Assembly (NCBI GenBank): GCA_001600095.1
Contig: BCIX01000006.1
Span: 1,412,412-1,476,411, forward strand
Direction: 5' to 3'
DNA length: 64,000 bases
Origin: Bullera alba
Taxonomy: Eukaryota; Basidiomycota; Tremellomycetes; Tremellales; Bulleraceae
The first letter of the stretch is position 1, and each line of letters begins with the position of its first letter. Under the pieces are notes generated by a model. The model worked only from the letters and a program-made list of their open reading frames with translations. It was not told where the DNA came from and ran no database searches. Below are positions 11,657-56,660 of the stretch, piece by piece. A program made the position numbers and the translations under genes.

Positions 11657-14600
11657 ATGGGAAGATCACTCACAAAGGATGGATTGGCTGACGCGAGCAG
11701 CTCTCAGAGCAACGCTGTAAGTCACTCTTCCAGCGTCGTCGCGTCTTCACCACACGAGCCTCAGTCACGACACGGTTCCAAATCAGGCCTATTGAGCCTG
11801 ACGGTCGAGAAACTGGCTTTGCTTACCCTAGGATATTGGCCTTTACTCGCTGAGCAGCTCACCAAGATGGCCACCAACCAATCCCACCATATTCTCCACC
11901 GCATGGTCCCTCTCATTTGCCAGGCGCTCACCACATCTCCCAACGACGATGTGGTATGGCTCGAGGGTATTCGGCTACTATGCGACCCCAAACTCCACAC
12001 GATAATGAACCTCACCCCATCGATATGGCTTCCTCTGCTGCTCAAGGGGATCGATCCAGCCAGATCGCCTCAAATCATTGCGGCCTCGCTACGCGCATTG
12101 ACCGAGATGTCGGGCACGCTCGAGCCAATGAAGAGTTGTCTGATCAAACCGCTCAAAGCCCTAGCGAGGCATAGTGACCCAGCGGTAGCAACTAGTGAAG
12201 AGCTGATCATGACAGTGGAGAAGTTGAACCTCAAAATCACGGATAACGTCAAGAGAATCATCGGTCGCGAGGTGAGTAAAACCTTCGTGCAATTCAGTAT
12301 CGATTGTCCAACCTGACTCTAGCATCAGATTGTCGGTTCTCAGCCCAGCACTCCACTTCCTCCCACCACGCCTGCACCACCATCGGTCCCGAACCCGAGA
12401 GATCACCCCCTCCTCGCCGAGATTCTATCCCGAAACCTCCCTGCGAAAAGCAGGACCATTCGGCATGCTTGGACGACAACGCTTTTGTCCACGACTCACG
12501 ACAATCCTGCAGTGTGGCTCAACAACCTGTTTCACTCCACGCTCGAAGCGAGTGCAGTGCCAGAGATGGTAATTACCGCTAGGGTAAGTCCTCAGAGGAG
12601 ACTATCGGACTTCACTTATCGACAACTGTTGTAGTTAGGAAATCTCGTTCAAGCAGAGTTGTTCCAAACCGCTTTCCTCAAGTGCTACCTCCAGATCGCA
12701 AATGACAAGCAGTTCAAGGTGAGCAGACGCACTCATCACATTGTCTTCATGTCTGTACTGAACAAACCCCAAGGAATCGGTAGACTCGGCATTGGTCCGC
12801 CTACTCTGCGATACTTCAATGGCTAAAGACATCTCATCGGTGTTACTCGATCTAGTCGCGTTCTTCAGTAAAGAAGGTGCTGCCCTGCCTCCAGCAGTAC
12901 TTGATGCCGCGAAGAGGTGTGCCTTGGGCAACTTCCGAGGTGATCTACATCAGCCGGTTCCCGCCATTGTACTGTGAGTCCGAGTTCCCGTGAGACTTGT
13001 CATTTTACCCGCCGATACGTCTTGTCGTTAGTTGGTACGCCGAGCAGCAGACGGCTGAGGATATGTCGGCGGAGAACATTGCTAATCTTGTCGAGGTGAA
13101 CATCCGGTATGTTAGCTGCCTCGTTCTTATTGCCTGGAAAGGATAGGAAGCTGACTTCTAGACCAGGATTGGCGCATCAGGTATCTGCTTGCAGAGAATC
13201 CCGACTCATGTCGTCTGCTAACTCTTTATAGGCTACGACTCCGCTTGGTCCTCCCTCCTCTGGCTGCAGGATGACTTCGAAGTCTACCCAAACCCCATGT
13301 GGCTGACTCAGCTCAGCCACTGGGACACCGCGCTCACCAGGCAGGACTATCTCGACGAGGGACAACCTGGTTCTACATTCGCCTCGTTCAACACTCGAAT
13401 GATCTGTCGTGAGTAAATCACAAAGTCAAGATGCGCCTCTCTCACGGCTGTAGATCATGCGATGGGTCAATTCGAGAAAGGGTACAACCTCTGCCAAAGC
13501 CTGTACGAGGGATTGAACGATCACGAAAGGCGCAAAACGGCACATTGGGCTACAGCAGCGGCATGGCACATGGTGAGTACTCCACCCGCGGATCAGGGCT
13601 GTTCTGATTGTTGTTTTAGGCCGACTTTGAGACGATGGCCGATTACCTCGCCTTTCATCCCAAGGGAACTTCCAAATCGCTGTACAAAGCCATTATCGAT
13701 GTCCACCATGGTCAATACGCCTCGGCCTTCCACCATATTGCCAAAGGCCAGTCGTTATCCTATGACGAGCTCCAAGCTCAGCTCCGAGTCGGACCCCAAG
13801 TCGCACTCAAGACATTGGCCAAGACGGAGGTGTTGGTAGAATTGCAAGAGGTGATCCAGTACAAATCCCAGCCGGAATCCAGGGAACATATCCTTGGATT
13901 ATGGAAAGCCCGGTTCAAGCGTAGTCATGCGGACGCCAACTCTTGGTTGAAACGACTTCAAGTTTGGCATTTGGCCTGTCCAACGACGGAGATTAGGCTG
14001 CAGAGCTGTTATCTCGATTGCGCCAAGTTGTGCGAAAGCTCTGGGATGCACGAGGCCGCTGCGAGGATACTGGATTGGGTCACACCGGACGATCATCCTC
14101 CGGTGAGTGCTGTCGACTGGAGGGTAATTGTCATTTTTACCACCGTGCTGATAGGATATTACAGGGATGTAAGGTGGAGTATACAAGAATGCGCTTCGAG
14201 TGAGTCCTGCAACCGAGTGCTTGAGGTGTATATCACTGCTGACCTCGACGTGCTAGATGGAAAACAGCCGCCGCGAAACAGGATACCTCCAAGATGCGAG
14301 AAGTGCTCGACCGGCTGCACATCCACCTGACCACATTCCTCGATTCTCTTGGTGTCGACCGACTGTCATTGGAAATGGAAGGACTTGGTTTAAGACCACT
14401 GATGTCGACCGCTGCTTTGCCTGCGGAGAAGCGCACCATCCTCGCTCGAAGATTCTACAGACTTGCTCAGTGGTCGGAGATCCTACAAGGGTCATACTGG
14501 CTGACAGTGAGCCTCCACGATCAATACTACATACATGTCCTGGCTCATTTTGATTCACAGGACATGGATTCCGAGGTATTCAGGTACTATTCCTTGACCT

Positions 14601-17600
14601 ACAAGCTGGACGATTTATGGTGAGCTAAGCAAGGTTCCTCAGATTTCCTTCTAGCTGACAAGGATTTCCTCAGGTACAATGGGGCCTACTCTGTCGCTCA
14701 AGCTGCCATGAATGTATTCGAGGCGAATGGCTGCCAACGCTCCGACCCGATCGCCATCAACAGCTACGGTGAGTGGTGTATGTAGCATGTGTCGTGGCCT
14801 TTGCTGATAGGGCCCCCTCCGCTCCATAGTGGTTCCCGCCGTTAGAGGCCTTTTCCAAGCTGTTCGCTCACGCGAGACCCCCGAGAAGATGATCAAAGCG
14901 CTTCTCCGGCTCGTCACCCTGTGGTTCCGATACGGCGAATCGGAATCTGTCCTCGTCGAAGTCCGACAACAGCTCAACGAGACCGCCGTGTCGTCCTGGC
15001 TCGAGGCGATACCCCAGCTCATTGCCAGACTCGGTACTCGGCACAAAGACCTACAAGGCCTGTTGATCAGTCTGCTCAAGAACATCGCTAGTCAATACCC
15101 TCATGCGGTCATTTGGCCGTTATTGACAGCGAGTCAGACCAAAAAGGCGGAACATGAGGAGGCGGCCAGAGTCATCATGGACTACATCTGCACCATGCCC
15201 GACGGCACAAAGCTGGTCAGCCAGGCAGAGTTGGTGGGCAGAGAGCTCATCAGGACGTCCATCTCGTGGCTCGAGAAGTGAGTCGTCTAGTCTTCTCTGG
15301 AGGCGGTGGGCTAATGAGTCAGGTGGAAATCAATCGTCGACAAGTGTCTACCCAGGCAGGACCTCATGGAGATCGCTTGGCAGGATATACCGATGATGTG
15401 GGAGGAAGAGATTGACAAGCTCTCGGTATGTTCATCACCCATGTTCGTCCACACGTGGATTAGCTGATACGTGCACTAGAACCCAGAAACGCCGGACGAG
15501 GAACAATTCGTTCAGCAATTCGGCGGCCAGTTGATCCAGATCTTCAAGACGTTGGTCAAGTACAGAGCGACAAGACAGCTCAACCTCGTCAACTCGGCTT
15601 ATACTGATCTGTACAAGGTCAGCTATGAAAAGCGGCCACACGCTTGATCCAGCTGATTTCCTGCTAGCTATATGGCGACATGGACTCGATGCTGAATCAT
15701 TGGAAGGTGCCAGGATCCAAGCTCCAGCTCGCTAGTGCAGCACCGCGATTGCTATCCCTCAGAGATTGCTTGTTGACAGTACCGGGTATGTCAACAGCTC
15801 GATCGAGGTTCCTCTTCGCTGAGCTGATCGGTCTCTTAGGGCAATACGACCACCACATTAAGCTCGACAACCAAGCCTTCATCGACTCTTTCCACCCTAC
15901 GGTCGATATAGTATCGTCGAAACAGCTGCCGAGGAAGTTGGTCATTCGGTCTTACAATAGCGACTTCACCTTCTTACTCAAAGGTGAGTCACGATATCCA
16001 ACCCCGCGCAACTTACTGACGGGGAGGCATACAGGTAACGAGGATCTGCGAGGGGATGAGCGTATCATGCAGTTGTTCACCTTGATCAACACCTTGTTGA
16101 ACCACGAGTCCGAGGCGTTTGGGCGGAACCTCCATTTATTACCTTACCAAGTCATCCCACTCTCACCATCTGCGGGTTTGCTGTCTTGGGTGAAGAATAC
16201 CCAGCCGTGAGTTGTTTCTAGTCGAGCTCGATACGATGAACACAACTGACCAAGGGGCCAGTCTACAAGCGATGATCCAGGCAAATCGGGAGAGGGACAA
16301 GTCTCACCCCCGCCTCTCCAACATGGAAAGGGCATCGATCCTGGGAGTGAGTCTCATCGAGCTGGAGAGTTTGTGGCTATGCTGATGGTCGCAGTACGAC
16401 CCTGCTACTTTCGATCCGGATCACGGTAAACCGAGACTGGACCCACAGGCCGAGATGGACAAATACGACAAACTGCCATTGGAGGCGAAAGTCGAGAGGC
16501 TCAAGGGAGCCCTCTCGCACTCAAAGCAGAGTGAGTGGTGATGTCGTCTAGATCTCGCTCGAACTTCCACTGACTATCAACCTCCCTAGGCGACTTGAAA
16601 GACGTATTGTGGCAACGAAGTCCATCTGCCGAAATCTGGATCAGGCGCAGGACCAACTTTGCCCGAACAATCGGTGTTGGAAGTGAGCACTCTATCCGGA
16701 GTACTACCTGCTTTCTGTATTGACTTCGTGGCAGGCTTCGTTGGTCACGTCATTGGACTCGGAGATCGACATCTGTCGAACATCCTGGTGGATCAGCTTA
16801 CCTGGGGCGCCCTACATATCGACTTTGGCGATGTGAGCATCAGCTTCGACACCCAGTCAAGACTTGAGCTGATGAACCCACCAGCTCTTTGGAGCTGCTC
16901 AAGATAGGAGCTACCTCCCAGAAAAGGTTCCCTTCCGCCTGACTCGCATGATCACCAATGCGTTCGAACTTGCCGGATCCCAGGGACATGCTGTCCCCGG
17001 AACGAGGGGTTCCTTCAAGCAAGCCTCGATCGTGACCATGGGTGTGCTGCGTGAAAGCAGGAGTAGTCTTCTGGCGATGCTTGAGGCTTTCCTATATGAT
17101 CCACTATTGTCCTGGACTGTGAGTACCATATGGCGTTCCCTCATCAATCAAATCTCTCAACTGTAGCCCATCAGCCGTCTTAGACGATGGGACCGGAGCT
17201 GATCAAGCTACTCTAGGCGTCTACTGCACCTTCAAGCGCGGCGAACGTAGAAGGAGTGACCGCCTCGGATATGAGTCAATCCCAGACTCTGGTCAACCTC
17301 CCCAAGAAGCATCAGATCGCTACCGCCGGTGTCATGATATCACACAGCGTGGCGCCCATCAAATCTGACATCGGGGACGACTCGAGTAAAGACTTCTACG
17401 ACAAGATCGACAATTCGCTCATCGGCACATACCTCGATGCAGACAGTTACATGGCGAAAGCCACTGGTGGTCGTATGACCAATACAAAGGCGCTTCAGGT
17501 ATGTATCAAGTCCGACTCCCGTTCTTCTCCGGCGTCTCATCCAAGACTGGTATACAGCTGACCATGTGTCTAGGTGCTGTCGCAGATAGAGAAGAAGCTT

Positions 17601-17780
17601 GCTGGGTTCAAGGACGATTCGGAGCAGCCGTTGTCGGTCAAGAAACAAGTACAGGAGTTGATCGAGGAAGCGATCGATCTGAGAAATCTCGCTCAGGGTG
17701 AGTAATTCGATTCAATGTAGACTACATGCTGATGATGAGCTACGACAGGCTACGTCCTAGGCTGGATCCCGTTCTGGTAG
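11657..17780 (+). CDS. Divergent, N-terminally short TOR-family protein kinase (TOR-like PIKK)
   Basis: Phosphatidylinositol-kinase-related Ser/Thr kinase with about 20 introns. Order: a short helical HEAT-like part (11657-12270); a FAT domain (about 13070-15290) with YPHAVIWPLLTASQ and LVGRELIRTSISWLEKW, diagnostic of TOR; a degenerate FRB-equivalent (about 15300-15700); a kinase domain (about 15900-17130) with SSKQLPRKLVIRSY, FLLKGNEDLRGDERIMQLF, VIPLSPSAGLLSWV, VLWQRSPSAEIWIRRRTNF, GLGDRHLSNILVD, HIDFGD and LPEKVPFRLTRMITNAFE; an unusual linker; and a FATC end, AQGYVLGWIPFW. The lysine, catalytic Asp/His/Asn and DFG are all kept, so it should be active. A usual TOR has over 1,000 more N-terminal residues; here the upstream DNA holds other genes. 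Cryptococcus species are known to have a TOR-like kinase (Tlk1) besides Tor1; this may be its counterpart, which I cannot prove. No frameshift seen. Confidence 0.9.
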
Positions 17781-18121
17781 GGCCGAACCACTGTATATCT
17801 CCTCCCCAGGTCCTACTAGCCTGCATCGGTTGTAAATTGTACGTATCCGTAATGCATTGCTTGTATACCAGTGACCGTGCTTTGGTACACTAATGATCGC
17901 CGACGACCAGATTATCATTGACACCCTCCTTTGTGATCGGCAATGATCAGCCTCCGAGTCTCCGTGGAGCGGACGAACAACGGAAAGCCTAATACTGCCC
18001 CGCTGTGGCTGGAGAATGGAGACGGACTTACGGGTAGTCACTGACCCTGCTGTTGCATGAAAGAGAGGTGATGCTGGTACAGACACCGTGACGTCGTGAC
18101 TCGTCTAATCAAGTCCACAAC

Positions 18122-19473
18122 ATGTTCACCAACAGTCTCATAGCGATCTCGAGACCATGGGTCTCGAAAGTTATTCATGGCATCGCCATAATGCTTCTGA
18201 CGGGATGTTTGGTGCTCAATCTCATTCTCCTCCTCCTACCCACTTCCTCACTTCATCTATCTGTATTTTCGATTGAACCCACAGGTAAACAGCTTGTCGC
18301 AAAGACACCCACCCCGACGAACAACGAGACAATCACGCTGTCCCCGAATGTTAGTATTGGGGCTTACGAGGGTTTGAACAAGGAACCGGTGAATCGCACG
18401 GCTATAGTCGAAGCTCCCAAGTTCTGGATGGGGATCGACGGGCCTAGTATCTGGGTCGGAGCGATGAGTGAGTGCCTACCTTCAAGAGGCAAAGCCACAT
18501 GGGCACTTGAAGCACGGGCTGATATTGGGATAACTCTAGGTATCTGCTCCAAGCGCTCTGATAAGGGTGATGTCAGCTGTACATCGGCCTCTAGAGCGAG
18601 CGAGCGTAAGTGGCGTGACATAGAGGCATCTGCCGCGACGGCTGATACTCTTGGTAGACTCTACCAGTTTACCCTTTACTCTCTCCGACAGCTTGGTGGT
18701 CATGCCAACGAGTCCACCAGTGCCCATCCTTCTCGTCGTGGGCGCCTTATGCCTCACAGTCGCCCTCGTGGTGTACCTTGGCAATCTCATTTGCCGATGT
18801 CGAGCATACGCCACGTTCCGAGAACGATCGCCGTTCAACCTACTCCGCCATCAGCCAAAATTCTCCACGCGAAACCACCGTCATACCATGATGAGCACGG
18901 ATTCCACTATCACCTTGGTCAATCGGTCTTCCGATGTCAGCACCCCTAGACCCAGATATTCCGTCTCGCTGATCGCGGTATTCGCCTTGACCTGCGGCGC
19001 ATTTGGGTTGTCACTCGCTGCGACGGTGATTGAGATGATCAATGTTCAGAGGGCGAAGGACCATTGGAGCGGGGAGCAAGCTGTGGAGATTGGGATGGAA
19101 TGGCAACATGGTGCTTTGACATTCCGTGAGTGTACCAACCCTTTCCAACTCTGTGCGTCAGTGGAACGCCTTGCTCATGGTGGGACTAGTCATGCCGGCC
19201 TTGCCTGCGGCTTTGCTCCTGTTGATCTTGATCTCCCTGGTGCCTCTCGTCGGGCATCTGAATGGACGGGAAAGTATGCTGGGCCAGAAGATCGTATCAG
19301 CTCCAGCTCCAACCGCTGATGCAGAGGATGTCAAGTCCGTCTCGCCGTTGACGCAGGTCCCACCAGGATGGACGAGGATCAATGTGGAGAGGCCAAGAAG
19401 CGGGTTCAGGGCCGTAGGTGATGCGGAGCAGAGCACGACGGTGAGAGCTAGTGTGATTGGCACTGCAGTGTGA
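18122..19473 (+). CDS. Four-span membrane protein of unknown function (SUR7/PalI-like layout)
   Basis: Three introns. The first hydrophobic segment (IAIMLLTGCLVLNLILLLLP) is followed by an extracellular loop with possible N-glycosylation sites (NNETIT, NRTAI) and a cysteine pair. Three more membrane segments follow: VPILLVVGALCLTVALVVYLG, a span around LIAVFALTCGAFGLSLAATV, and a span around PALPAALLLLILISLVPLV. The C-terminal tail is hydrophilic. One long loop then three close spans is the arrangement of SUR7/PalI-type fungal plasma-membrane proteins; the sequence itself is not close enough for me to assign the family. It starts about 340 bp after the TOR-like stop in the same direction. Confidence 0.75.
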
Positions 19474-19615
19474 GATAGATAGTGGATTGAGACTCCGAGC
19501 TCGTCGCCTGGGAATCGAAGAGACAGTCCAGACAGAAGAGAGTAGCTACCTGTACCCGTATGTAGCTGCCCCGGTGGTTACGAGTCACTTACAACGGTTC
19601 TCTTGGGCGATAACC

Positions 19616-19642
19616 CAATTCGTAATGCCCAATTACGAATTG
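19616..19642. repeat. Perfect 11-bp inverted repeat (hairpin)
   Basis: The arms CAATTCGTAAT and ATTACGAATTG flank a 5-base loop. It lies 143 bp after the stop of the four-span membrane gene and about 220 bp before the DUF3292 gene start. It could act in 3'-end formation or bind a dimeric regulator; neither is shown. Confidence 0.6.
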
Positions 19643-19695
19643 CAACTGTTGCACGGACAAGAGTCGAGACTCCGCTTACAACAGTTTCTAATGAG

Positions 19696-19703
19696 TGACG
19701 TCA
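19696..19703. promoter_or_regulatory. CRE/ATF-type palindrome TGACGTCA
   Basis: A perfect 8-bp consensus for ATF/CREB bZIP factors, followed at once by a second TGACGT half site (19705-19710), about 160 bp before the DUF3292 start. Position and tandem arrangement suggest an activator or stress-regulator site; binding is inferred. Confidence 0.5.
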
Positions 19704-19859
19704 GTGACGTACGTTCCCACCTTTATGCTTACCTGCCCAAGCATCCTCGTTCTCTGGAATCCGGATTTTTCACAAGGCATCCTTGCAAGTGAACATCCTT
19801 CGAACAGGCTGTTGCCATTCAATACACCTGACCAATAGATACCCCTGCTCACCGTCACC

Positions 19860-22677
19860 ATGGATCTCGGTCAGCCGATACAGGTTGTACCAGCGACAGG
19901 GTCACAGCTGGATCAACCAGCTCATCCAAGCTCCAGTATCGCACCGCCAAGTCAAGCAGCTCCTCCGCAGTCGTCTTTGGTACAACCGACAGTCCCAGGT
20001 GCCCCTTCCACCGCTGCACCTAGCAGCGAGCAAGCTGTCAAGGAGGGGGTGACCACCACTACCCACGCTCCCACTGCGGTCATCGATCCGCTTGTCCCTT
20101 CGAGCGAGTCTGCACCGACTGCCCTACCCACGAACCCAGCAACCAGCCCACAAGAGCAGCATCGGGCTGTTGCCAACGAGCACCCTGCTGTAGTTGCCAG
20201 AGAGGTGGAAAAGACGAAGGCCGCCGAGCGAGATGTCAAGGGAGAAGCCGCCATGGGTACCATAGTTTCGGGTTTAGAGGACGACAGGCTGTACCAAATG
20301 CTGAGGCGATTTGACGTGGTGAGTTCCGCAGTTGCTAATCATTATGAGGCTATCAGCTTACCATTCCATCTCTGTTTAGCAAATCACCCATGTCCTCCAC
20401 CCCGCACACAAGCTGCCTCCCCAAGAGCCAGACCTGCGACCCTCGCCGCTGCCCAATCTCCCCTCGCATTCCGAAATCTTGAAGTCCAACCTCGAAAGAG
20501 TCTTTGCTGCTGTTGGACCTTCGTCAATCCGAGGTTCGAGAGAGCTGAAACGCCTGATGTCATGGTCCCCGGAGGAGAGATACAGGACCGGAGCATACTG
20601 TATTTCGTACTTCATCTGCTGGATCTTCGGCTACGCTCTCGCTGGAGTCTTCGCCTTCTTCGTTGCCTTGGTTTGTTTCCCTGACTGCAGACGATACCTC
20701 TTCCCCGCCGTGAGTACTTTCTACTTTATACTGACGAGAACTCTATATACTTAAGGAGATATTAGGTCGCACCTCCACCATTCACTCCTCCTTCCGCCAC
20801 GGACCCGACAAATCAAAAAGGCGATGAATCACTTCTTGGCAACGTCGACAGCAAAGCCGCACACAGGAGTAAAGCGGAGCAGGCGGAGGAACAGGCTTTC
20901 GAGGCTACATCCATCCTTCAAGCGTTCACAACACGCCTCATCTTTGTGAGTTGAATTCTTGACTATCTGGAAATCAAGCTGATCTTGCATGTAGGACGGC
21001 CGGAAGAAGGGCAAAGAGGCTGGGAATTCGGAAGTTGGAGAGAAGCAATCAGAGTCCTCATCATCTTCGTCTTCCGACTCTGACGATGACTTCCACAACC
21101 GACCCACCCAAGCTGGCGCACAAGGTGTCGAAGGAGCCGATGTTGTCGTTGGAGGCGAGAAGATTCACACGGATAAACCAATATCGGCCAAGGAGAAGAA
21201 GAAGCTGCAGCAGAAGGAGGCGAAGAGGAAGCGAGACGAGATCGTGTCGAAAATGACCAAAGCCACTGAGAGCGGATTGGGATCATTCGCCGATATGGTT
21301 GAGATGATGACAAAGTGAGCACTCTGCCTTCGAGCTGTATCTTCTGGTTTAGCTGACCCGACTTTGCAGCGCACTTTCACCTCCGGCTCCATATCCCGAC
21401 CGGAAGGCAAGATTCAAGATTGCTGGAGCGTTCTTGATCCCCCCCATGTTCATCTTGCACTTTGTTCCCGCCTGGATGTTTGGCAGAGCGGCCACGCTCT
21501 TGTTCGGAATTGGAATGTGGGGGCAGCCACTGTTGATCAGAGTTGCGATCAAGTTTGTCGAACTGGTACCTGACTGGCAGGACAAGCTGGATATGCGAAA
21601 GTGAGTGAAGTCACTATTCAGATCATAGGCTTGGAGTGCTGATCTGTATTACCAGTTCTATCCTCAGCGGTGTCCCAACCGATCAACAATTGACTCTTCA
21701 CCTACTCCGAGTGGCGGAGGCCCTACACGCCCCTCTTCCTAGACCACCGTAAGTCTGTTGGCTTACACTGGGTACTGGCAACTGATATGCCGCTAGTCCA
21801 CCACCTCTTGCTGGAACGCCAAAGGTTTGTCAATCGGTTGACACAAGTTTTGTCCATGCTGACAATCGATGCAGGAAGCCATCAAAGATACTACTCCTGC
21901 CACCCTCACCGCCGAGGATGACGAGGAGGTTGTTGAAGCGGAGCAAGAGGGTGGAATCGCAGCAACTGCCGTCAAAGCGAAACACAAGACGAAAGCGCAT
22001 ATCCTCGGAGCGTTCCAGAAGGCAGGCAAGAAGATGGCCGCGTTCCATGGCGATGTTGCTGTAGACGGCACGAAGAAGCAGGTGAGTGTAGTCAAGGTGG
22101 CACTCGCGATGATACTAATTTGAGACGCTGTAGATTGGAACCAAGATTGACAAGCTGGTATATGGCAGTGGGACGAAAGACCAGGGTCGGATCGACAGTG
22201 AGCGCATTCAGCTACTGGAGCTCTTATGAATGTGCTAAAAGTCCTTCAGCTTTCCCTGCGAAATTGGACGGCGTTTCCGGGCATATCATCCTGGATGCTG
22301 CCAATGACGAATTGATCCATCCCCAAGTCTCGTTCGTTCCCTTGACCGGCACTAAAGCCAAGTTCATCATGCCAATCGATGACATTGTCGAGATCAAAAA
22401 GGTGAGTTTCTCATATATCCCCTTCGCTGTACTCAAGCTGATATTGTCGTAGTCACACGTGTCAATGCCGAGAATCGCTCTTGGATGGGTGTCTGGCGCC
22501 GAGGTCGAGGGACTCGGTCTCACACTTCGATTCAAGGATGTCAATCAGCAGATCATCGAGGTCAATGGCGGAGAAAAGACGGAAGGAGTGACGATGCACT
22601 TCACCAGGGTGACTCGACGGGAGCACCTCTTTGTCAGACTGGTCAGCATGGGCAGACAGAGATGGGAGATTCTGTAG
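19860..22677 (+). CDS. DUF3292 family membrane protein
   Basis: Multi-exon gene. The N-terminal 130 residues are Pro/Ala/Ser-rich and probably disordered. The conserved part starts at LYQMLRRFDVQITHVLHPAH, followed by the family landmarks GPSSIRGSRELKRLMSW and YCISYFICWIFGYALAGVF (membrane segment) ending in CRRYLFP. An acidic/serine and lysine-rich loop follows, then PYPDRKARFKIAGAFLIPP with a second hydrophobic region, WQDKLDMRNSILSGVPTDQQ, LLRVAEALHAPLPRPP, and a C-terminal beta-rich domain (KAKFIMPIDDIVEIKK, VTMHFTRVTRREHLFVRLV) resembling a PH-like/GRAM fold. DUF3292 is a fungal family of unknown function; membrane location is inferred from the hydrophobic segments. Stop at 22675-22677. 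Confidence 0.88.
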
Positions 22678-41217: not shown

Positions 41218-43455
41218 ATGGATAGACTTCAAATTGCAGATGAGGAGGAGCCGGACGCCGCTCGGCTACAAACCGTTGCACTCGGTCTGGGAGGTTTCGG
41301 ACAGCAGTTTCAACAACCTCCCAGCACCCCGAATCACGATCCCCTCTTGGATGATCTGGATCGTCTGAGTCCGCGACAACATTCCCCTGATGTTGACAAC
41401 GATGATGTTACGAGCGTGGACAGTGACGAGACTGAACGGCCACTGACAAGCTATCTAAGAAACATAGGCAACTTTGGTGGTTTGCTCGGTGACAATGCAC
41501 CCGGCACAAAGTCAATTCCCGGACCCGCCAAGACTGAGACTTGGATCGATGAGAGCTTTCTCGGCGACTCGGAATCTGAAGCGGCGTCGATCAGGGACGC
41601 CAAACAGAGTATCATTACGGACACGACTCTTGGAGACGGACAGAGGTTGGTGCTAAAACGCTCTTCGCCGCCCCTTCCGCCGGGGTATGGTCCGGGCATA
41701 TTCGACGTCGACAACAGCTCTCATGGTCACGGGCTGCTGGGAGATCCTTCCGGCTACGACGGCGGCGAGGAACTTGTCATGAACCCACCTTCTGGGGATA
41801 TTCATTCCTGTGACAATTGCGGCGTGATCACAACAACAAGCCAGGTATTCCCGCGCTCCATCATCGGTTCCGACAACGATCCCATAAATGACAGTTACCA
41901 TCAAGCTCGACCCGATTCGACAATACGATCAAAAGGAAAAGTAGGAGTGTATGGAGGATACGATACTGCAATACAATCCAGTCTACCCCGTCGAATCCGC
42001 AGCTTCGAGGAGCTGCCCAAGATGGTTTGCGAGCCTTGCAGTGTTCTGCGACAAAACGGAAACGAGCTACCTTACACTGAGGCCAAAACTCGTTGGGAGA
42101 ACGAAACCAGTCAAAAGATTGATGGTCCCTTGGGTCGCCCATTCGAGGAGCTTGTCAAATCTGGAGGAAGCTACTGCTCGGTATACGACTGCGACGAGCT
42201 CGGCGTCGAAACTGCCGAAACGGTCGGTAAGCGCGGGATTCTGGATCTGACGAGATCTCGACGGTTTTGCAAGTCACACCACGAGCTGGTGACCAGACCG
42301 GCCAGAGGTGCATCGCTGCAGTTGAAGCTGAGTAATGAGTATCACGCCGACTGCATCATCCACGACACTGCGACCAAGATCGCTGATTGGCTCCGAAGTG
42401 GAGCCTACAAGTCGGAGGATATCCCTCGACTAGAAGATCATCCGGGATGGCCATATTTGGTCAAGTCTACTTGCGATACTGGTGGTAACGGCCATATCTG
42501 CTGGAACGACAAGACTCCCGATATGGACTCTTGCCTAGTGTGCACGGGATTCGAACAGACTTTGGACAGACAAAGTCAAGAACGGAGCCTGATGGATAAA
42601 AACGATAGATCCCTATCCGACGATTGGTGGTTGTGCAATATGCGAATGGTGAGCCGAGGCAGGAAGAGCAATTGCAGCAAAGACTCAACCACCTGGATGA
42701 GCAAGAAACACCTATACCCCAACCTCGTGAGCAAGACCGAGAAGAGCAAGGTCTCTTCTGGGGTATGCGAGCGACATCAGCAGAAACGGTCCCTCGAGCA
42801 ATCTTGCCGGACGTGCGGACGAGCGCCGGGTCACGACGCCGCGACGGGGTATGTCTTTCACCCGGCGGAGGATCTCACTGGTGGTCACTGCGAATCCTGC
42901 TTTACCGCCAAGGGCTTCACCTCGACAGAATCTGCAGGCGAACAAACCCACCCCAGCCAAAGAGAGCAGCTCGTTGAGGCCATTCGCCGGGCCCGGGCCA
43001 AGGAAGGAGGCAGTGGCTCGAAATCTCATCAGGAGGGTAGTATCAAGCTCGATGACTACCGCTCAAGAGGTCCCGCACACGAGGCCGAGTCTAGGCGTAT
43101 CAAATTGCGTTCATACCGGCGCGTTCTGGGCAGCACTCTGAGGACCCTTCGAGGCGACTCCACGGAAGCCATCCCGAGTAAAGCGTCTGACCTTCTGGAG
43201 GATGCGATGGATCGGACTCTCAGGACTTTCGCCGAGACCGACAAACAGGTCAAACGCTTGGACAGCTTGGTTCCATTTGGCCAACTCGGCGAGACCGACT
43301 TGGAAATTGAGACGGCAAGACATGAGGCGAGTCAGAGGCTCGAAGCCATCATTGAGCGATACACCACGTACTGGATGCTGGCAAACCCTCCCTGGGCTGT
43401 AAAACACCGTTCCTCCGAAGCCACTGGGGACACAGAAGACAGCGAGCGAGACTAG
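41218..43455 (+). CDS. Hypothetical intronless protein with many CxxC motifs, possibly GATA-like zinc fingers
   Basis: One uninterrupted frame of 745 residues. The first 190 are acidic and probably disordered. CxxC pairs follow: SCDNCGVITTTSQVFPR, about 60 residues further MVCEPCSVLRQNGNEL, then YCSVYDC, SCLVCTGF, SCRTCGRAPGHDAATGY and HCESCF. The first two pairs resemble the two halves of a GATA finger (CxNCG..TP.WRR and .CN.C), but with a much longer loop. The C-terminus is basic, then helical (LRSYRRVLGSTLRTLRG, LEAIIERYTTYWMLANPPW). No signal peptide or membrane part. Nuclear and DNA/RNA-binding roles are only inferred. The single long exon is unusual here. Confidence 0.8.
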   Translation: MDRLQIADEEEPDAARLQTVALGLGGFGQQFQQPPSTPNHDPLLDDLDRLSPRQHSPDVDNDDVTSVDSDETERPLTSYLRNIGNFGGLLGDNAPGTKSIPGPAKTETWIDESFLGDSESEAASIRDAKQSIITDTTLGDGQRLVLKRSSPPLPPGYGPGIFDVDNSSHGHGLLGDPSGYDGGEELVMNPPSGDIHSCDNCGVITTTSQVFPRSIIGSDNDPINDSYHQARPDSTIRSKGKVGVYGGYDTAIQSSLPRRIRSFEELPKMVCEPCSVLRQNGNELPYTEAKTRWENETSQKIDGPLGRPFEELVKSGGSYCSVYDCDELGVETAETVGKRGILDLTRSRRFCKSHHELVTRPARGASLQLKLSNEYHADCIIHDTATKIADWLRSGAYKSEDIPRLEDHPGWPYLVKSTCDTGGNGHICWNDKTPDMDSCLVCTGFEQTLDRQSQERSLMDKNDRSLSDDWWLCNMRMVSRGRKSNCSKDSTTWMSKKHLYPNLVSKTEKSKVSSGVCERHQQKRSLEQSCRTCGRAPGHDAATGYVFHPAEDLTGGHCESCFTAKGFTSTESAGEQTHPSQREQLVEAIRRARAKEGGSGSKSHQEGSIKLDDYRSRGPAHEAESRRIKLRSYRRVLGSTLRTLRGDSTEAIPSKASDLLEDAMDRTLRTFAETDKQVKRLDSLVPFGQLGETDLEIETARHEASQRLEAIIERYTTYWMLANPPWAVKHRSSEATGDTEDSERD

Positions 43456-43653
43456 TCTGAGGCTGCAGCGCGGGCCGTCTCACAAGTCACAATCTTCCAG
43501 ACGACTCGACAGGGTATTGTTCGCCCGATCATATCCTTTCACTATCTCATGATCCTTTGATTCCACACCACTACTCGAGCCAATGCAAACAGCCCTATAG
43601 CACATCAACTCGTCCCACCATCAACACCCATTGATCCAATCAAAACGCCCAGT

Positions 43654-44265: not shown

Positions 44266-44359
44266 ATCGGCAAGACGAACAACTAAGCCTGAACGGGAGG
44301 ATCTTATACACTCATACATGCAGAACAGACTAATGCAATCTGATGACAAGACATACTGA

Positions 44360-47663: not shown

Positions 47664-47949
47664 TGGGCCCGACGCATCGATATCATTTGTAGTATGCACC
47701 TTTCATCTGCCACTTACAAGGCTCATACTGATATACAGAGCCGGTGACTCGAGTGGCAGTCGACACTCCTTTGACCTCATGGAATGCGAGGGTCTTCCCT
47801 TCAGATTCGCTGTAGACTGACCGTAGATATCAACATCCCTCGTGAATCCGATGAGAATTCGCCACCACGCTCGACTACACCTGGGTACACCACAACAACA
47901 ACAACATCAATACCTCATCTACATTGTTACACTGACCTCCTCGTACGCA

Positions 47950-48879
47950 ATGACCGCGCTTGCCTTCCCCTTTGCACCCCTTCAAAGCTCAGATTTTGCG
48001 CCTGTCTCGGATGAAGATCCCTTCTCTCCTCGACCCTCTTTCGGGTTCACCAACCCCACTCCCAACACCATTACCGTGGCCCCCACCGCACCCAGCTATA
48101 GCCCTTGGGCCTCGATACTTGAGGGCTGGAATGGAACCTCAAACCCGACAGTACCAGTGGACCCATTCGTCAGTCGGTACGGTATAAGTCGCGATGACCT
48201 GAAGAAGCAATACATCACGAGTCAAATCTCTGGGTACCATCTATTCGATCCAAACTACCAAGTCTATCTGCCGAATCTGATCACTGACCTGTCAAAGAAG
48301 GAGCACTACTCGGATACCGAGCTGGATGACTATTGCAAGAATGTGCTCAAGATGCAACCCCGAGATTTCCTTGGTGTCGGACAGTCTCAAGTGCCAGCCC
48401 CGCCGCCATCTTTCTTCTCAGCAACGACACCGACTGCGCCCCGAGGGGCAGGCAGTGGTACTAATATGTTTCCGACGAATTCGACGGCAATGACGAGTCA
48501 GTTGGAGGATTTCTGGATGAACGTGGTTGGATTCGACGCCAGTGTCCCCGCCAGCGAGAAGCACGCCACGGCTTTGCACAGGATGAACACCGAGCCCGTC
48601 TCACAATCAGCCTTGGACACCTTCCGAGCACAGTACGCCAGTCTTCTGGACCCGCCATCAACGCCTCCTTCTCAGAACCCCTCTCAGAGCTTGCCGTATT
48701 ATCTCGACCCAGCCAACTCGATGGAAACGATCGTCAACACTAACGACAATACTGGAAGAAGTGTGTCGCAGGTATTGGGACAACTACGCGGGTCCGTATC
48801 CAACGCGAGACACAGATTGAGGGAGTTTGGACCAGACTCAGCATCTGAGTCAGATTGGCGTACTGTCAGATTCGCATGA
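47950..48879 (+). CDS. Hypothetical intronless protein
   Basis: A single frame from MTALAFPFAPLQSSDFAPVS to stop, 309 residues. A longer start at 47851 would add 33 residues with a Gln run. The middle has FVSRYGISRDDLKKQYITSQ and LDDYCKNVLKMQPRDFLGVG, looking like two helical pieces. The rest is Pro/Ser/Thr-rich. There is no signal peptide from the 47950 start. Unknown family; it follows the previous gene by about 290 bp in the same direction. Confidence 0.65.
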   Translation: MTALAFPFAPLQSSDFAPVSDEDPFSPRPSFGFTNPTPNTITVAPTAPSYSPWASILEGWNGTSNPTVPVDPFVSRYGISRDDLKKQYITSQISGYHLFDPNYQVYLPNLITDLSKKEHYSDTELDDYCKNVLKMQPRDFLGVGQSQVPAPPPSFFSATTPTAPRGAGSGTNMFPTNSTAMTSQLEDFWMNVVGFDASVPASEKHATALHRMNTEPVSQSALDTFRAQYASLLDPPSTPPSQNPSQSLPYYLDPANSMETIVNTNDNTGRSVSQVLGQLRGSVSNARHRLREFGPDSASESDWRTVRFA

Positions 48880-49041
48880 GCAACAAGTGGCCAGACGAGG
48901 CATGAGATGAGCACGGGCGCCGTAAGAGGTCGGAAGGATTGGGCATATAGAAGTTATGGCTATAGAAAGGTGATCAGGAATACATGTAAGAAATGACACA
49001 GTTGTGAGGGGTTGAAGGCACTACTAGTCGTATGACAGTGA

Positions 49042-51379
49042 TCACTCGTGCGAGATACTGACGCTCGGCATATCATCATTGTTCTCCGGTTCCGGCACTG
49101 AAACGCCGATAGATCGGACCTTCTTCTTCGCAGCACCTTTCGCCTTCCTCACTGGAGTTCCGAGAGGAGCCAATCGGGACTTGTTACGTTGGGCAGAGAT
49201 CGAGCTCAACGATTGTTTCCAGGCAGAGACGTTTTCGGCGGCCTGCTTCGGGTCTTCCTTGTATTGAAGGAGATATCCCTGTAGAGCGGCCATACTGATC
49301 TCCGGCGGAGCCATCTCGGAGGCTGTCTCGAGGGAGTCGCGAGTTGGGAAAATAGCCTCTGTGAAGTCGTCGGCGAGTTGCTCGAGATCTTGTTGAGAGG
49401 TGATGCCCAACGAGCCCTTCTCCCTTGATACCAGGTCCTCGTGATCGATCTGGAGAAAGTCGTCCAAAGGGTAGAAATGGAGGAAGAGGGCTTTGGCCTG
49501 TGATGCCACCGCGTTGTGGAACGGTACCCTGACGTCGAACCTCCCCGCACGGGCGAGAGCTGGATCCAAGCGTTCGGGATAGTTGCTATGGGCAGTATGT
49601 CATCAGCACCGCTCACATGATCAGAGGATCTACGCTCACGTCGAAGCAATCAGCACGCAGCCTTCTTGACTGGAAACTCCGTCGATGGCGTTCAGCAACC
49701 CGGACAAAGTGACGGTGGACGGAGCGAGATCGTGCGAGCCGCCCATGACGGGAGCTGAACTGGCCGGGTTCTCCTGCTCATTTGCCTCGGGCAGCTCCAA
49801 CATCTCCTCGGCGTAGTCGCCTTCTCCTTCTTCAGCTTCGTTGACTGGTTGTACGCTTCGGTTGCCTCGACCTCGTGGAAAGACGCAGTCGCTGCACAGT
49901 CCGTCAGCAGGAGCATGACATGGAAGCAGTGGACTTACATGTCCTCGATGAGTATGATAGACTTTGAAGGGCAGTCACGGAACAATTTGCTCAGCTTGGC
50001 GTCGTCCATCCTAAAAGAGACACAGGTCAGCTATGATCAGAAGCGCTCCGACATAGACTCACCCTCGTTGAGCGGGATTGATAATGTAGATGTCCAGACT
50101 GAGCTTACTGGCGATGGCTGTGGCTATTGAAAGGTCGGTCAGCATCATTGACAGCGCGGAAACCAGGTATGAGCTTACCCAATGTGGTCTTGCCGGAGCC
50201 TGGCTCGCCGTGAAATAGATACCTGTAGCCGTTAGTAAGTGACAGTTGCTTCAGACTCGGTCGCTAGAGACTAACCCGCGTCGATGTGGGATACCTGTCG
50301 CGGCGAATATCAGCACAGATTGTCACTCTTTGCTTTGAGAACTCACCTCGAGCGGCATACCAAGACGTCTCCTTGTCGGACAGGAATCGTTCTATATCCG
50401 ATAGAACTGTCTCCTTCACCGCATCCGGCAGGATAACAGATGACCAAGGTCGGCTGGGTCGCACGACGGCTTTCTGCCACGCGGGCTTGATTCGCCTGAT
50501 ATCATGTCAGCTCGAACGTCTCACGGTGCCATGGTAGCTCACATTGCATGGAAGATGAGGAGCTCTTTGTCTTCTTTGGAGAAGTAGGCTTGATGGGCAG
50601 CGACCAGGAAGTTCTTGATGGCGTCTGGATGAAACACTAGTGTCCTGCAGGTACGGTCAGACAGTACAAGCGCTGATGATTCCAGTGGGATCCTGCGACT
50701 CGCCTGATTTGAAGGTGATCGGTAGTCCTGTTCTTCGTTCTGGCAAAAGCAGCCATTCTGCGGCTAATCCAGAGATACCGACCCTGGTGCTTGATGCGGA
50801 TGGACTGATCTGCACAGGGGAAATTAGCACTTGGATGGAAAGGTGAGGAGACCAGAGAGTTGAGACGAAGGAGAGGAGCGATCGGTAGGTAGTACTTACA
50901 GTAAGTAGGAATTACCTGCCCGATAATCTCCTTCGAAGACCAAGTCGCATTCTTGTCGCCTATCCTGCTATTAGTCTCGGAGGCCAGTGCGTTTCCCGCT
51001 TGCTTTCGAATCGAGCGCCATTCTGCGGTTGAGAGCTGGAAGTCCTTGATCTGTCCTTGGGCATATGGGTCTTGAGCGAGCCAGGCCATGATCCACTGGA
51101 AGGAGTGATCGCTGACATGGATGTACGCAGAAGGGAAGAGCGCTATCATACAACGTGCTCAGCTGCAATCCTCAATGACCACGGAGGGGACTCACCTCTT
51201 TCCATCTTGGCACTGGCCCACGAGGCAAACTTCCTCAAGGCAGCGATCACAGCGCCGAGTATGACCACCCGAATGGCGCCGTGGAGGACGTTGTCGAGGT
51301 TTGAATGTTTGGCCATGTCTGCTAGTAAGCGAGTGTTGGTGAAGAGGGCCTGATTCACAGCCTCGACAAGATGAGCCAT
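49042..51379 (-). CDS. Mitochondrial Bcs1-type AAA ATPase (complex III assembly chaperone family)
   Basis: AAA protein of the Bcs1 group; yeast Bcs1 moves the folded Rieske protein across the inner mitochondrial membrane during complex III assembly. The N-terminal exon has a membrane-segment region (VLHGAIRVVILGAVIAALRK); the BCS1_N-like part reads WSSKEIIGQ, RMAAFARTKNR and NFLVAAHQAYFSKEDKELLI. The AAA core follows: RPSRPWSSVILPDAVKETVL, Walker A YLFHGEPGSGKTTL, Walker B SIILIEDI, then CVLIASTNYPERLDPALARA and GRFDVRVPF. A long C-terminal tail (about 130 residues) ends in MPSVSISHE. Seven or more introns. The insert after Walker B is acidic and unusually long. Fungi often carry several Bcs1 paralogues, so this may not be the essential one. 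Confidence 0.9.
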
Positions 51380-52143
51380 GGCGACTGCTTAGATCAGAGG
51401 GTTATAGCAGATGATGAGAGGGAGGGGAAGAGTTCAGTCGAGAGCTTTCTGTTATAACCTCTGCCCCGGGAGTTCATGAACATCCTCGTGTTTCCACAAC
51501 CGGTCAGCCTTCCACGACGTCCTTTCAGCGCTGATCCTTTGACTGTTGTCCATGATGCGTGGTCGAGGCGTGTAACATGCGTTCGCAGCGAGCAAGTGGG
51601 GGTAGGTAGCTGTAGGCAGCCGCAGGGGTAGAAGATGAAGAGATCGTGTAATGCGTGGTGTCAGGTGGTGTCCTCACCATTCAACAAACAGATCTACTCC
51701 ACACGCCTACCGTAAGAATCGGCAATTTGACCGAGCCTAAAATCCGGGGAGATGCGATCTTCGAGTACTCGTCTAGGCGTGCAGTCCACCCAGCCTACTC
51801 CTAGACAGACGAGGACAGACCTGCTCTGACGGTACGAAGATACTGATAGCAACTACTACCATACAACCATCAAGACACTTGACCGTCACGATGATGTCGT
51901 CTTCGAGCCCACGAGCATGGCGGGAATGCAACTGCGGTTATACACAAATCGAATCATCGAGGCGAATCACTCACGGAATACAGGCAGGGATCAACATCAG
52001 ATCATCGCCTCCAATGCCCTTTGTACCATCACAAAGGAGGTCAGCGATTTCAAGTAGGCTACCCGCCTTCCCTCACATGACACCTCCGGGTAGCATGTCT
52101 TGGAGGAGTCATCAGCATGGTCTGAGAATCCACCTCGACCGGA
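51380..52143. other. Intergenic between divergent genes
   Basis: About 760 bp upstream of both the Bcs1-like and Raptor-like genes. An open frame at 51879-52169 has no protein character, and an in-frame TGA lies seven codons before the Raptor-like ATG. Confidence 0.45.
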
Positions 52144-55100
52144 ATGCCAGCCAACTCAGTACCCAATAGCGTTCAAAGGCGTATTCAACCTTCAATGAAC
52201 CCAAGCAGTGATCCCTCCTCGGGCTTTGTGACCGTGACTAGCAGCTGGGCGAGTACCAATTCATACCTGTCCTCCGGGATGGGGCGTTCTCAACCCCCTC
52301 TCGCCTGGTCTGCCGTCAGACATCAGGTCATGGAAGTGGACAGGGACGCCTCAGAGGTCGTGGTGGCGGATAGAACTTCGAGTGAGTGACTCTGTGAACT
52401 CTGCCTAGACAGTCTTAGCCTTCTCGATTGTGAGTCATGACTGACATGAGGCTCAGATCAATGCAGTCAAGCTGTACTCCTGACCTGTCTTCACCTCTCA
52501 CACGAAATGGCTCTGAGGGACGTAGGCCTCTACGCCTGGACGCTGCCTCATGCCAAGGATCCATCTGGAAGCATGATCCGGATCATGAAGCGTGAGTCGG
52601 GTTTCGGAGCTGTATACCACTGAATACTGATTGCGTTTTGTAGGATACGCCGATCTCATGCAGAGTCTATCGACAAATGCCACCTTGACTTGCCGGACTG
52701 TGAGTAAATTCGGATATGAGCCAGCTAACCGCTCTCAGGCGCCAGACCCGTCCAAATCGTCTATTCAGCGCAACCTTCAGAAAGCACGCCTAGCTGCCGG
52801 ACCCAATAGCTACGTTGCAGTGCTGTACTCTGGTCATGGTATACAAGAACCGCCTACGGAAGCAGGAGAGCTATGGTGTTACGACAGATCGTTCGAGGAG
52901 TGTGCTCAGCAAGGAGGCGGACCCTCCGAGTGAGTCAAGCTGGCTGTTGTATGACCCTATCGAAAGCTTACCCCTACCGTAGATACATCCCCATCCTGCT
53001 CTTCGATCTGCTCACCTGGGCTGGCGCATCGACGTGCTACGTATGGGACTGTCAACACGCCGGTCGGTTCATCAAAGCCGCCTTGACCGAGGCCGAAGAG
53101 ATCGACAACCAGCTCCAAGTCGCTGCGGAGAAGAACCCCTCGGTGGCTTCGCTACACCCTGCTATCTATTCCCAACAGCAGATTCACTTTGCCGCCTGTG
53201 GAGCTCACCAGATCATCCCTCGAGTGCCTGGTATGCCCGACGACCTCTTCACTTGTTGCCTCGTCACGCCATTACGCATCGCATTGCTGTATCACAACCT
53301 CCAGACATTCCCCCTCAACGCGACCTATTCCGGCAAATACAACCAGCGATCGGCCGGGTACATGTCGGCTCTGTTTGAGAACATGTCACAGGGACTCAAG
53401 AATAGACTATGGTCCGAACTCCAAGCTATCCTACACACCATCGCCTGGCAGTCTCTCGGAGGCAAAGAGTACCACATGCTTTTCGGACAGAGCGGGGACG
53501 TCATCTCAAATCTGGCCGGAGGGTTCTTACTCTCTCAAAGGGTCATGGGGTCGTACAAGGCCAATCCGGAATCCATACCACCCATCCCTTCGTCAACGGC
53601 TCATCCGCTCTGGATCCACTGGGACTTGATCTTGGACAATCTGTTCGAACAGCTTCCAGCGTACTTTGACGAGGATACCGACGACTGGGAGAAGAATCTC
53701 AAACTGGTTTCCTTCATGGACGATCAACTCACCTCCATGCTCGACATTGACGAACCTTATCGCCCATCGAGACCGAGCTCGTTTGAATCGGCAAACATTG
53801 GTCACCTTGTGCCCAACCTAGCTCGCCTGCCTATCGTCTGCAAAGCGGCTCTCACGCCCGCCTCACGAGTCCAAGCATGTACCGTGCTGGAGAAGTGCTT
53901 GCGAAATCTCGATCTCGACGGGTTACACCATGCTATCCAAGGTGGTGCATTGGATGTCGCTTCTCAACTCCTCTCTTGTGGTGACGACTCGATCATCCCC
54001 CAACTGATCTCAATCTGGGCTTCTCTCGTGCGACACAACGCCTGCGTATCGACTCTCGCGGCCAATGGACGTACTGCCGAACGACTCACCGGTCTCCCCA
54101 GTGTCCAATTCTTCCTCGACGCCCTGGAGCGACATTTGGGCACACTCGATCCGGAATCGACTAGGACTGTGATCCAAACGGCGGCAGTGCTGTCCACCAT
54201 TGCCATCTATGTTGCGGGGAGACAAGCCCCTCGATTCGTCATCCGTACACTGAGCTTGGGCTCCCATATGCTCAATAGCGACGACAGCCTGGTCAAGCAG
54301 TGGGGCGCTATCATGGCAGCAGAGGTCATGGGGTCTATCGACCAAGCCACGGAGAACAACTTGGGTTTGGTAGACAAGATCAAGAATCAGCTTTTGGACA
54401 TGATCGATAGTTCCATCGTGGAGAACCGTGCTACTGCGGTATACGCCCTCCAGCGATGGATTCCATCGTCCCCTCAACTTCCTACTACCCCTGTCACCAG
54501 GATTGCCAATTTCAAGCAGCACCTCGAGCTCGAAGCGAACATCATGCCACTCTGTCAGACGGACGCCTCGGCTTTAGTGAGGGAAGAGGTTGCGAACTCG
54601 CTTTGCAAGGTGCTAGCCGCTGGAGCCAAATGGACCTCTGTGGCCATCTGGGTACATGCCCTCAATGTCGCCGTACCCTCCTTATCCCCGGAGGACAGCG
54701 TGAAGGCTCGAGAGCTGGTGGCCGAGACTTCGAGGCAGCTCGGCCTGAAAGAAGAGGAGAAGACAGTCGTCAAGCAATTAGGAGGATGCCTGGCCGCTTT
54801 AGTCGGAATGCGGGATGATCCGAATATCAAAGTCGGCACTGTGGTCGAACGATACCTCAAAGCGATATCGAGCTCGACCAATGGGGATAAAGCCTGGATC
54901 GCCGTGGTCGAACGTATTGCCAAGGAGGGCCGCTCAGGTGATACTACGCCATACGATCTTCATACATTCGTCGATGCCAGGAGCCATTTGCTCGCAGTTT
55001 GGAACGCGCCCGACCCGATCAGACAACCGGTATTCCAGTCCAACAACAATCTGTTCGAGAGAAGCAAACTCTCACTACAGAGCTATCTAGCCGTGAGTCC

Positions 55101-56660
55101 ACTTGCCCGCCCTCAAACTCCGTACTAACCATTGGTAGGAAAACACCGATTCAGTCCGTTCTGCCCCAGACTCCATCAATGTACATCCAGAGTCATCGCG
55201 CGAAAAGACCTTCATACTGCGATATCGATCTCTCGAAGACTCTCTCGTCGTTTCAGAGCAGCAGGGTGAGTGCCCCGAAAGCCTGCTACGCCGTCTGCTG
55301 ACACTTTATAGTTGGCCTGCCGTGGAAATGGCAGGTCAAGGATATCGAATCGCCAGAACCGTGGTCCGCGATCTGCTTTCACAGCTTTCTCAACTTGATC
55401 CTGGCGTACAACAACTCTGCGGAGCTCTCGTGAGTTATCGTGACATGGTATGAGTGAGATCTGCTGACTTATCAGACTTTGGGATTGGGGCACTTCGAAA
55501 AGGCTGGGTGGGGTTACTTTTGACATACCACCTCTGGCTACGGTCACCTCGGCGCGTTTCGTCAATGAGCTCTTCGATAGGATCATCGTGGTGGCAGAGA
55601 TCAGTGAGTGGTCCCAGCCAATTTGGCGGGAGAGATGCCATTACAGGTCATGACTGACAGTGACTGCAGGTAATGGCGATGTACACGTCTTATCCGCCTC
55701 TTCGGACGATCCTTCCCGTCTGAAAACGATTTCCTCCTTCAAAGCGCTCAACCGTGCCTCCAACTCACTATCGACTCCGACTCTTCAACCTCTGGTATCG
55801 ACCTGGTGGAGACAAAGTGGGAAGTTGTGCGTTGCAGGCGATTCGGATATCGTCAACGTGTGGGATTGCCCGGCCGAGCGGCGCGATAGAGTGAGTCTGT
55901 CGCCCAATCTTCCCTCAATCATTTACTGACCGGTATAGGCGTTGAGCACTGGTACCACAGCCTCACTCACTACGATCATCACCGAGCCAGTATCGGGGAA
56001 TGTGCTCCTAGGCGGGTTCGCCAATGGTCTCGTCAAGCTATGGGATCTGAGGCAGAGCCGACGGGACCCCTTGATGTCATGGCAGGGCGATGTCTTCAGC
56101 TCCAACACGCCAGCTATCGCCTCTGGGGGATCGATTGTCAAATTGGGCGTTGTCCTGGGTGAAAGCAAGCACATCACATCGGCATGGTAAGTCGATCGAC
56201 TCACCACCCTCGATATTAGCTGACCATATTGTCATTTAGCTCCAATGGTCTATTGAACATACACGACCTTCGGAAACCAAGCGAGACGTGCAGCTCGGTC
56301 CTGGTGCATGCGGGTGGTATTGCCTCGGCGTCGTTCCAAGCCCATTCCGGCATCATGTCAACCATTTCCCCATTGCAGCCATCGTCCTCGGGTGTCAACA
56401 TCGCATTGAGGCTCTACCGCTCGACTACAAGTGGAACGACCTGTGTCTCGACAGAAACCCTCTCCTTTGACTCTATAACCCCCGGAGAGGGCAAGAAGGG
56501 AATCTTCAAGCCCTACACGGTGATACACAACCTCCGACCTTATCTGGGCGTGGGGTACAGCAATAGAGTCTACCTAAGAGGTGCAGGAGTGGGGACTGGC
56601 GAGGATACCGATTCAGGCAGTTACTCCTTCCTCCGCTCTCAGGCGAGATACAGGTCATAG
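52144..56660 (+). CDS. Raptor/Kog1-like TORC1 scaffold protein, divergent
   Basis: Homologue of Raptor/Kog1, which presents substrates to TOR in TORC1. Start MPANSVPNSVQRRIQPS; an in-frame TGA lies just upstream. The Raptor N-terminal (caspase-like) domain reads LHLSHEMALRDVGLYAW, SYVAVLYSGHGIQEPPTEAG, ELWCYDRSFEECA, YIPILLFDLLTWAG and CYVWDCQHAGRFIKAAL. Then IHFAACGAHQIIPRVPGMPD, LFTCCLVTPLRIALLYHN, LHTIAWQSLGGKEYHMLF and AGGFLLSQRVMGSY match the conserved core. Armadillo/HEAT repeats follow to about 55100, then C-terminal WD repeats (VNVWDCPAE, GGFANGLVKLWDLRQS, GLLNIHDLRKPSE). The total is near 1,350 residues. The usual YNGHGVPxPT motif is changed to YSGHGIQEPPT. The His and Cys of the caspase-like dyad positions are kept. 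Stop at 56658-56660. Confidence 0.9.

Follow-up and report, generated by a model that had tools for sequence, protein, structure and literature searches.

The 64,000-nucleotide stretch of Bullera alba DNA analysed here (the window) carries a TOR-like kinase gene of the Tlk1 group (TLK; 11657–17780, + strand) and a second Raptor/Kog1 gene (RAP2; 52144–56660, + strand). Both are second copies, because a separate canonical TOR gene and a separate canonical Raptor gene are present elsewhere in the genome. TLK and RAP2 may together constitute a TORC1-like module of their own, unusual in architecture and insensitive to rapamycin, an interpretation for which the chances are judged to be barely better than even. 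The window represents the right end of contig C6 (positions 1412412–1476411) of a 19.4-Mb genome assembled in seven contigs. Its gene models, obtained from sequence only with a simple predictor that relies on codon usage, splice sites and branch sites, and corrected by hand, contain 27 exons for TLK (1555 amino acids) and 11 exons for RAP2 (1330 amino acids), with GT-AG borders in all 26 and all 10 introns, respectively. The reading frame of TLK is intact from the ATG at 11657 to the FATC tail, as is that of RAP2, confirming an earlier note on this DNA that had described an intact TOR-family kinase and an intact Raptor/Kog1 gene lying 34 kb apart (34.4 kb).

The presence of canonical copies, which the same note had proposed to look for, followed from a search of the genome with Pfam profiles. 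The FRB profile retrieved two loci, namely C2:1680249-1680575 and the window, and the Raptor_N profile likewise retrieved two, namely C1:1969838-1970315 and the window. The C2 kinase (TOR1) is canonical, being 40–51% identical to Mycena TORs, and so is the C1 gene (RAP1), with up to 49% identity to Rhodotorula KOG1; hence, that RAP2 would simply be the only Kog1 of this genome, which the note had named as a refuting case, is ruled out. Rictor was represented by one locus (C3) and Lst8 by one clear locus (C1:2540845-2541805), besides nine weaker WD40 matches. Among the four TOR-complex components searched, a second copy was thus found for TOR and for Raptor and not for Rictor, and no second clear one was found for Lst8. 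Compared with their canonical counterparts, TLK is 30% identical to TOR1 and RAP2 26% identical to RAP1. Such low identities, as well as the subtelomeric location, might be expected from a degenerating copy or a mispredicted gene, but open frames running across 11 and 27 exons with every splice site canonical, orthologues throughout the Tremellales, and 103 columns of the caspase-like Raptor N-terminal domain (RNC) plus 155 TLK kinase columns shared by 90% or more of the rows leave this explanation with a negligible probability, and the decaying-copy reading was rejected.

Both TLK and RAP2 arose by gene duplication at the DNA level, since they share intron positions and phases with the canonical genes beyond random placement. 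Seven of the 10 RAP2 introns fall in the same alignment column and phase as those of RAP1, two more have the same phase within 5–9 columns, and one is unmatched. For TLK and TOR1, 4 out of 26 coincide in column and phase. In 20,000 random intron placements, at least three coincidences were never reached for either gene. The shared introns favour an origin from the lineage's own canonical genes, and a constraint grouping RAP2 with its own RAP1 was not rejected (p-AU 0.46). In a mixture-model tree of 17 chosen rows, TLK was placed within the basidiomycete TORs (support 98/99; stem length 2.38), the grouping of TLK with its own TOR1 receiving only 62/21; a quick LG+G analysis covering 43 rows, in which SMG1 and ATR served as outgroups, placed it outside all TORs, with a long-branch warning. 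TLK and the Cryptococcus neoformans protein P0071 formed a clade in both trees (support 100 with LG+G and 100/100 with the mixture model), with the genome's own TOR1 outside. Similarly, a mixture-model tree of 18 rows chosen out of 36 (KOG_lgn48 dropped) grouped RAP2 with basidiomycete and two unnamed Kog1s on a stem of length 4.46, with a support (91/92) that falls under the star threshold of the tree tool. The TLK group and the RAP2 group were each monophyletic in the mixture trees (100/100). After the duplications, both proteins changed fast and later became strongly conserved.

The TLK protein probably starts at window position 11867 and counts about 1485 amino acids, since 19 of its 23 orthologues begin at the equivalent of Met71, the remaining four further downstream, and none upstream. 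What follows is the remnant of an M-HEAT solenoid (approximately 11867–13106, + strand), as delimited by an hhalign comparison of a TLK profile (the window plus 15 orthologues) with TOR1, in which TLK residues 63–426 matched TOR1 residues 922–1298 (probability 94.7). Before TOR1 residue 922, i.e. for the N-HEAT spiral (about residues 1–920 of TOR1), hhalign gave no significant TLK match; TLK is therefore far shorter N-terminally than TOR, a feature absent from the earlier note, and lacks this spiral of the TOR family. A tblastn search of the window with three N-HEAT queries yielded as its best match only one with an E value of 0.036. This match, downstream of RAP2 (58480–58695), is to the Naganishia N-HEAT region, with 25% identity over 85 amino acids, and is probably due to chance.

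Further downstream, TLK contains a degenerate FRB domain (Pfam-matched part, 15474–15620, + strand). In this domain, W2101 is replaced by tyrosine in 23 of the 24 TLK rows (one gap), including that of the window, versus a tryptophan in all 13 TORs, and the S2035 loop is unalignable, an alignment gap occurring in all 24 TLK rows. Both S2035 and W2101 (human numbering) are FKBP12-rapamycin contacts. TLK appears to have lost these contacts and is predicted to be insensitive to FKBP12-rapamycin. The PIKK kinase domain (16034–17118, + strand), delimited by Pfam PI3_PI4_kinase matches and a residue table, comprises the catalytic residues K2187, D2338, N2343 and D2357 (human numbering), which are kept in the window and in 23 of the 24 TLK rows (one gap), so that TLK is probably an active kinase. 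Its GDRHLSN motif replaces the family motif GDRHPSN. This domain also includes a putative Lst8-binding element that, judged by eye, resembles that of TOR more than those of SMG1 or ATR; the corresponding stretch of mTOR binds Lst8, and TLK may bind Lst8 too. The protein ends in a C-terminal tail with FATC (...NLAQGYVLGWIPFW; 17574–17780, + strand, from model and alignment). The order FAT, PI3K-like kinase and FATC was retrieved with Pfam in the orthologues P0052 and P0071, the window itself giving the FRB and kinase matches and having FATC in its gene model.

The absence of the spiral also bears on the possibility that TLK joins the one Rictor of the genome in a complex of the TORC2 type, RAP2 being unrelated to TLK. 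The genome does contain a Rictor locus, and rapamycin insensitivity is typical of TORC2, as is well established. In published work, the N-HEAT spiral is described as forming the TOR dimer and carrying the Kog1/Avo3 assembly (PMC6023025), and the removal of 297 residues as weakening the binding of Raptor (PMC9223334). Yet, the Avo3/Rictor contacts lie on the very spiral that TLK has lost (PMC6023025), and a TORC2-like role is considered very improbable.

RAP2 displays the three parts of a Raptor protein. Its RNC (approximately 52457–53400, + strand) was delimited from Raptor_N matches, the alignment and a model of the Kockovaella orthologue. The window gave two Raptor_N matches, one of 29.5 bits, above the Pfam cut-off of 27, and one of 23.1 bits, below it, and the orthologue P0014 reached 61.2 bits. 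Relative to Raptor, this domain is rewritten, and an insertion precedes the YIPI motif of RAP2. Together with the GDRHLSN motif and the substitution of W2101 in TLK, the rewritten domain bears out the departures from family motifs that had been claimed for both genes. Next come an armadillo/HEAT solenoid (approximately 53400–55092, + strand; alignment and orthologue model) and a WD40 propeller (approximately 55139–56660, + strand; alignment and intron comparison); all five RAP2 introns from 55266 onward match canonical Raptor introns. The model of the Kockovaella orthologue, folded with an alignment of 30 rows, five of them canonical, has the Raptor fold, its caspase-like domain, solenoid and propeller lying in the Raptor arrangement. 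The structure matches found with VIA-align include designed chains of the armadillo and WD40 types, each of which corresponds to one domain only, and the search against solved structures, inflated by the RAP1 row when the mixed alignment was used, was repeated with P0001 alone. With regard to 102 canonical solenoid positions, 35 are kept in RAP2 and 33 are switched and fixed. RAP2 probably keeps the fold of Raptor, many of its positions having been switched and then fixed.

The main rival explanation is that RAP2 serves TOR1, the only one of the two kinases to retain the dock, as an additional Raptor. RAP2 would then give an alternative form of TORC1 that differs in its substrates or its location, and TLK would act separately, alone or with Lst8. 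The 35 solenoid positions kept and the Raptor fold of the orthologue are compatible with such a role. Moreover, mTOR without its HEAT part is active in the absence of Raptor when combined with mLST8, and can phosphorylate S6K1 in vitro (PMC9223334). However, 33 switched and fixed positions are unexpected for a protein binding the conserved surface of TOR1, and the hosts of RAP2 are largely those of TLK; RAP2 serving TOR1 is therefore regarded as rather unlikely.

Indeed, TLK and RAP2 are present in largely the same Tremellales-related organisms. The RAP2 search returned 51 proteins, of which the 22 named by organism constitute the RAP2 group (39–54% identical), two RAP2 records carrying the database name 'dRaptor'; the canonical Kog1s ranked below this group, with 24–31% identity to RAP2. 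The TLK search returned 178 proteins, and among the best 120 of these the TLK group consisted of 24 named rows, 23 of them 54–67% identical and one, from Naganishia friedmannii, 36% identical. The hosts belong to the Tremellales genera Kockovaella, Kwoniella, Naematelia, Saitozyma, Cryptococcus and Tremella. Beyond this order, they comprise Cryptotrichosporon argae (Trichosporonales) and, for TLK alone, Naganishia (Filobasidiales). Counted by organism name, 18 organisms possess both genes, in addition to the genome of the window. Separately, a JGI metagenome protein of 720 amino acids (P0172), encoded on a contig of 7.7 kb, shares 97% identity with the window RAP2 over 53% of the latter, and this species or a close sister thus probably occurs in an environmental sample.

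The Naganishia friedmannii protein (P0075; 2317 amino acids) keeps the N-HEAT spiral, aligning from TOR1 residue 192 onward (probability 97.8), but has a cysteine at W2101, and is an intermediate between TOR and the Tremellales TLK. As this relative still aligns from TOR1 residue 192, the N-HEAT spiral was probably lost after the split from Naganishia.

The co-occurrence of TLK and RAP2, the duplication of both genes and the rewriting of both support a common module. Several observations weigh against it. First, the host lists do not coincide fully, as only TLK was listed for six named organisms and only RAP2 for four; clustering at 90% identity, which hides members, and the quality of gene models may partly explain this mismatch. 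Second, no RAP2 was detected for Naganishia, which has the spiral-bearing TLK relative, although the searches cannot exclude one. In particular, a search with a mixed RAP2 and RAP1 alignment missed all Tremellomycete canonical Kog1s, although this genome has one, so that its silence on Naganishia and the Trichosporonaceae is no evidence of absence. Third, the mirrored branch lengths that the earlier note had proposed to test for were found, in that the tree distances of TLK and RAP2 over 19 shared taxa correlate with r = 0.84, a value obtained without control for shared species history, and only nine of 16 splits are common to the two trees. Fourth, the loss of the normal Raptor dock by TLK is equally compatible with a kinase that does not require Raptor. 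Finally, TLK and RAP2 were located on contigs of unequal length in all 10 other organisms that could be read, i.e. those in which the TLK row and the RAP2 row are both single-member clusters (Tremellales sp. Uapishka_1, Kwoniella CBS 6097, CBS 9459, K. dendrophila, DSM 27419, K. newhampshirensis, Cryptococcus DSM 104549, Naematelia, Kockovaella and Cryptotrichosporon). The 34-kb spacing as a conserved gene pair was therefore rejected, with the proviso that some of these assemblies are fragmented, that of Uapishka_1 most, and that assembly gaps could hide linkage there. Consequently, the proximity of the two genes in the window, from which their pairing had been argued, is no evidence for a module.

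The missing linkage, the modest overlap in splits with the species-tree effect uncontrolled, and the Naganishia relative without a detected RAP2 are also what would be expected if the two paralogues were functionally unrelated, the products of duplications in one lineage having simply both been retained, with RAP2 now scaffolding something outside TOR signalling. This appears improbable, given that a second copy was found only of TOR and Raptor among the four components searched, and that both genes have been retained together in 18 named organisms. Taken together, the paired-module interpretation of the earlier note is partly supported, as both families form well-supported clades in largely the same hosts, whereas linkage was not seen in the 10 other organisms that could be read.

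For a TLK–RAP2 module, the following course of events may be proposed. The TOR and Raptor (Kog1) genes would have been duplicated in the Tremellomycete or basidiomycete lineage, and the copies would have been rewritten and then strongly constrained. TLK would be an active, rapamycin-blind kinase bound to the shared Lst8 of the cell, and RAP2 would be the scaffold, recruiting substrates and placing the complex by means of its caspase-like domain, solenoid and propeller. Because TLK is without the N-HEAT spiral, through which TOR dimerises and on which Raptor and Rictor usually dock, RAP2 would need to grip the remaining M-HEAT/FAT surface of TLK. The architecture of the complex would then differ from that of TORC1, possibly being that of a monomer, and no response to FKBP12-rapamycin would be expected. 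The physical pairing of TLK and RAP2, the binding of Lst8, the kinase activity, the substrates and the stoichiometry are all inferred. More speculatively, and with a likelihood put somewhat below even, Tremellales may possess a third TOR complex, composed of a spiral-less Tlk1, its own Raptor paralogue and the common Lst8, probably not a canonical dimer, blind to rapamycin and adjusted to signals of stress or of the niche. If true, this would be a TOR complex that retains kinase and scaffold without the architecture thought to join them. A TOR that has lost the sites of dimerisation and Raptor docking, but in most hosts occurs alongside a second Raptor, would represent a natural experiment on the role of the N-HEAT spiral.

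Concerning the remainder of the window, its last bases coincide with the terminus of C6 and consist of TTAGAGG(G) repeats (telomeric repeat, 63945–64000), as had been expected from a near-telomeric location. Among the ends examined, which were those of C6, C1 and C2, contigs C6 and C1 also begin with these repeats, whereas none were found where C1 ends or on either side of C2. The copies of this unit are irregular at both C6 ends and at the C1 start; plain TTAGGG is the telomeric unit of many fungi. In addition, an open frame of 530 amino acids (637–2229, − strand) showed a weak match to a trypsin-like peptidase (25.8 bits, versus a Pfam cut-off of 27.6). Between TLK and RAP2, an open frame of 745 amino acids (41218–43455, + strand) gave no Pfam match at all, as was the case for eight further unspliced frames of 274–445 amino acids.

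With respect to known systems, TLK is a known gene of the Tlk1 group. Tlk1 of C. neoformans (CNAG_05220; PMC3296764) is dispensable in culture and without evident in vitro phenotype, whereas survival in brain tissue depends on it (PMC7090016, PMC7596385). With the TLK-group protein P0071, which is probably Tlk1 itself, TLK shares 63% identity and a common clade. Furthermore, the altered FRB domain of TLK agrees with the reported lack of rapamycin binding by Tlk1 (PMC7090016), and a higher expression of the Tlk1 orthologue of Papiliotrema terrestris has tentatively been tied to stress resistance (PMC10960036). In the excerpts of open-licence literature searched, Raptor and the missing spiral were not mentioned for Tlk1, nor was a description found of a second Raptor in these fungi. 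The Raptor companion, the missing spiral and the joint distribution thus appear not to have been combined before in that literature, and RAP2 supplies a candidate partner for a hitherto orphan kinase. Two TOR kinases in one fungus are known from budding and fission yeast, as TOR1 and TOR2 (PMC2997006). RAP2 resembles the Raptor/Kog1 of TORC1 in the three-part fold of its orthologue and in the introns shared with its own Raptor, and differs from it in its low identity, its switched positions, the insertion before YIPI and its existence beside a canonical copy. Arabidopsis likewise has two Raptor genes, RAPTOR1A and RAPTOR1B, which serve a single TOR, whereas here the kinase is duplicated as well. 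Conversely, the two TORs of budding and fission yeast are both full length and are accompanied by a single Raptor, whereas in B. alba the second TOR is without the spiral and Raptor has been duplicated too.

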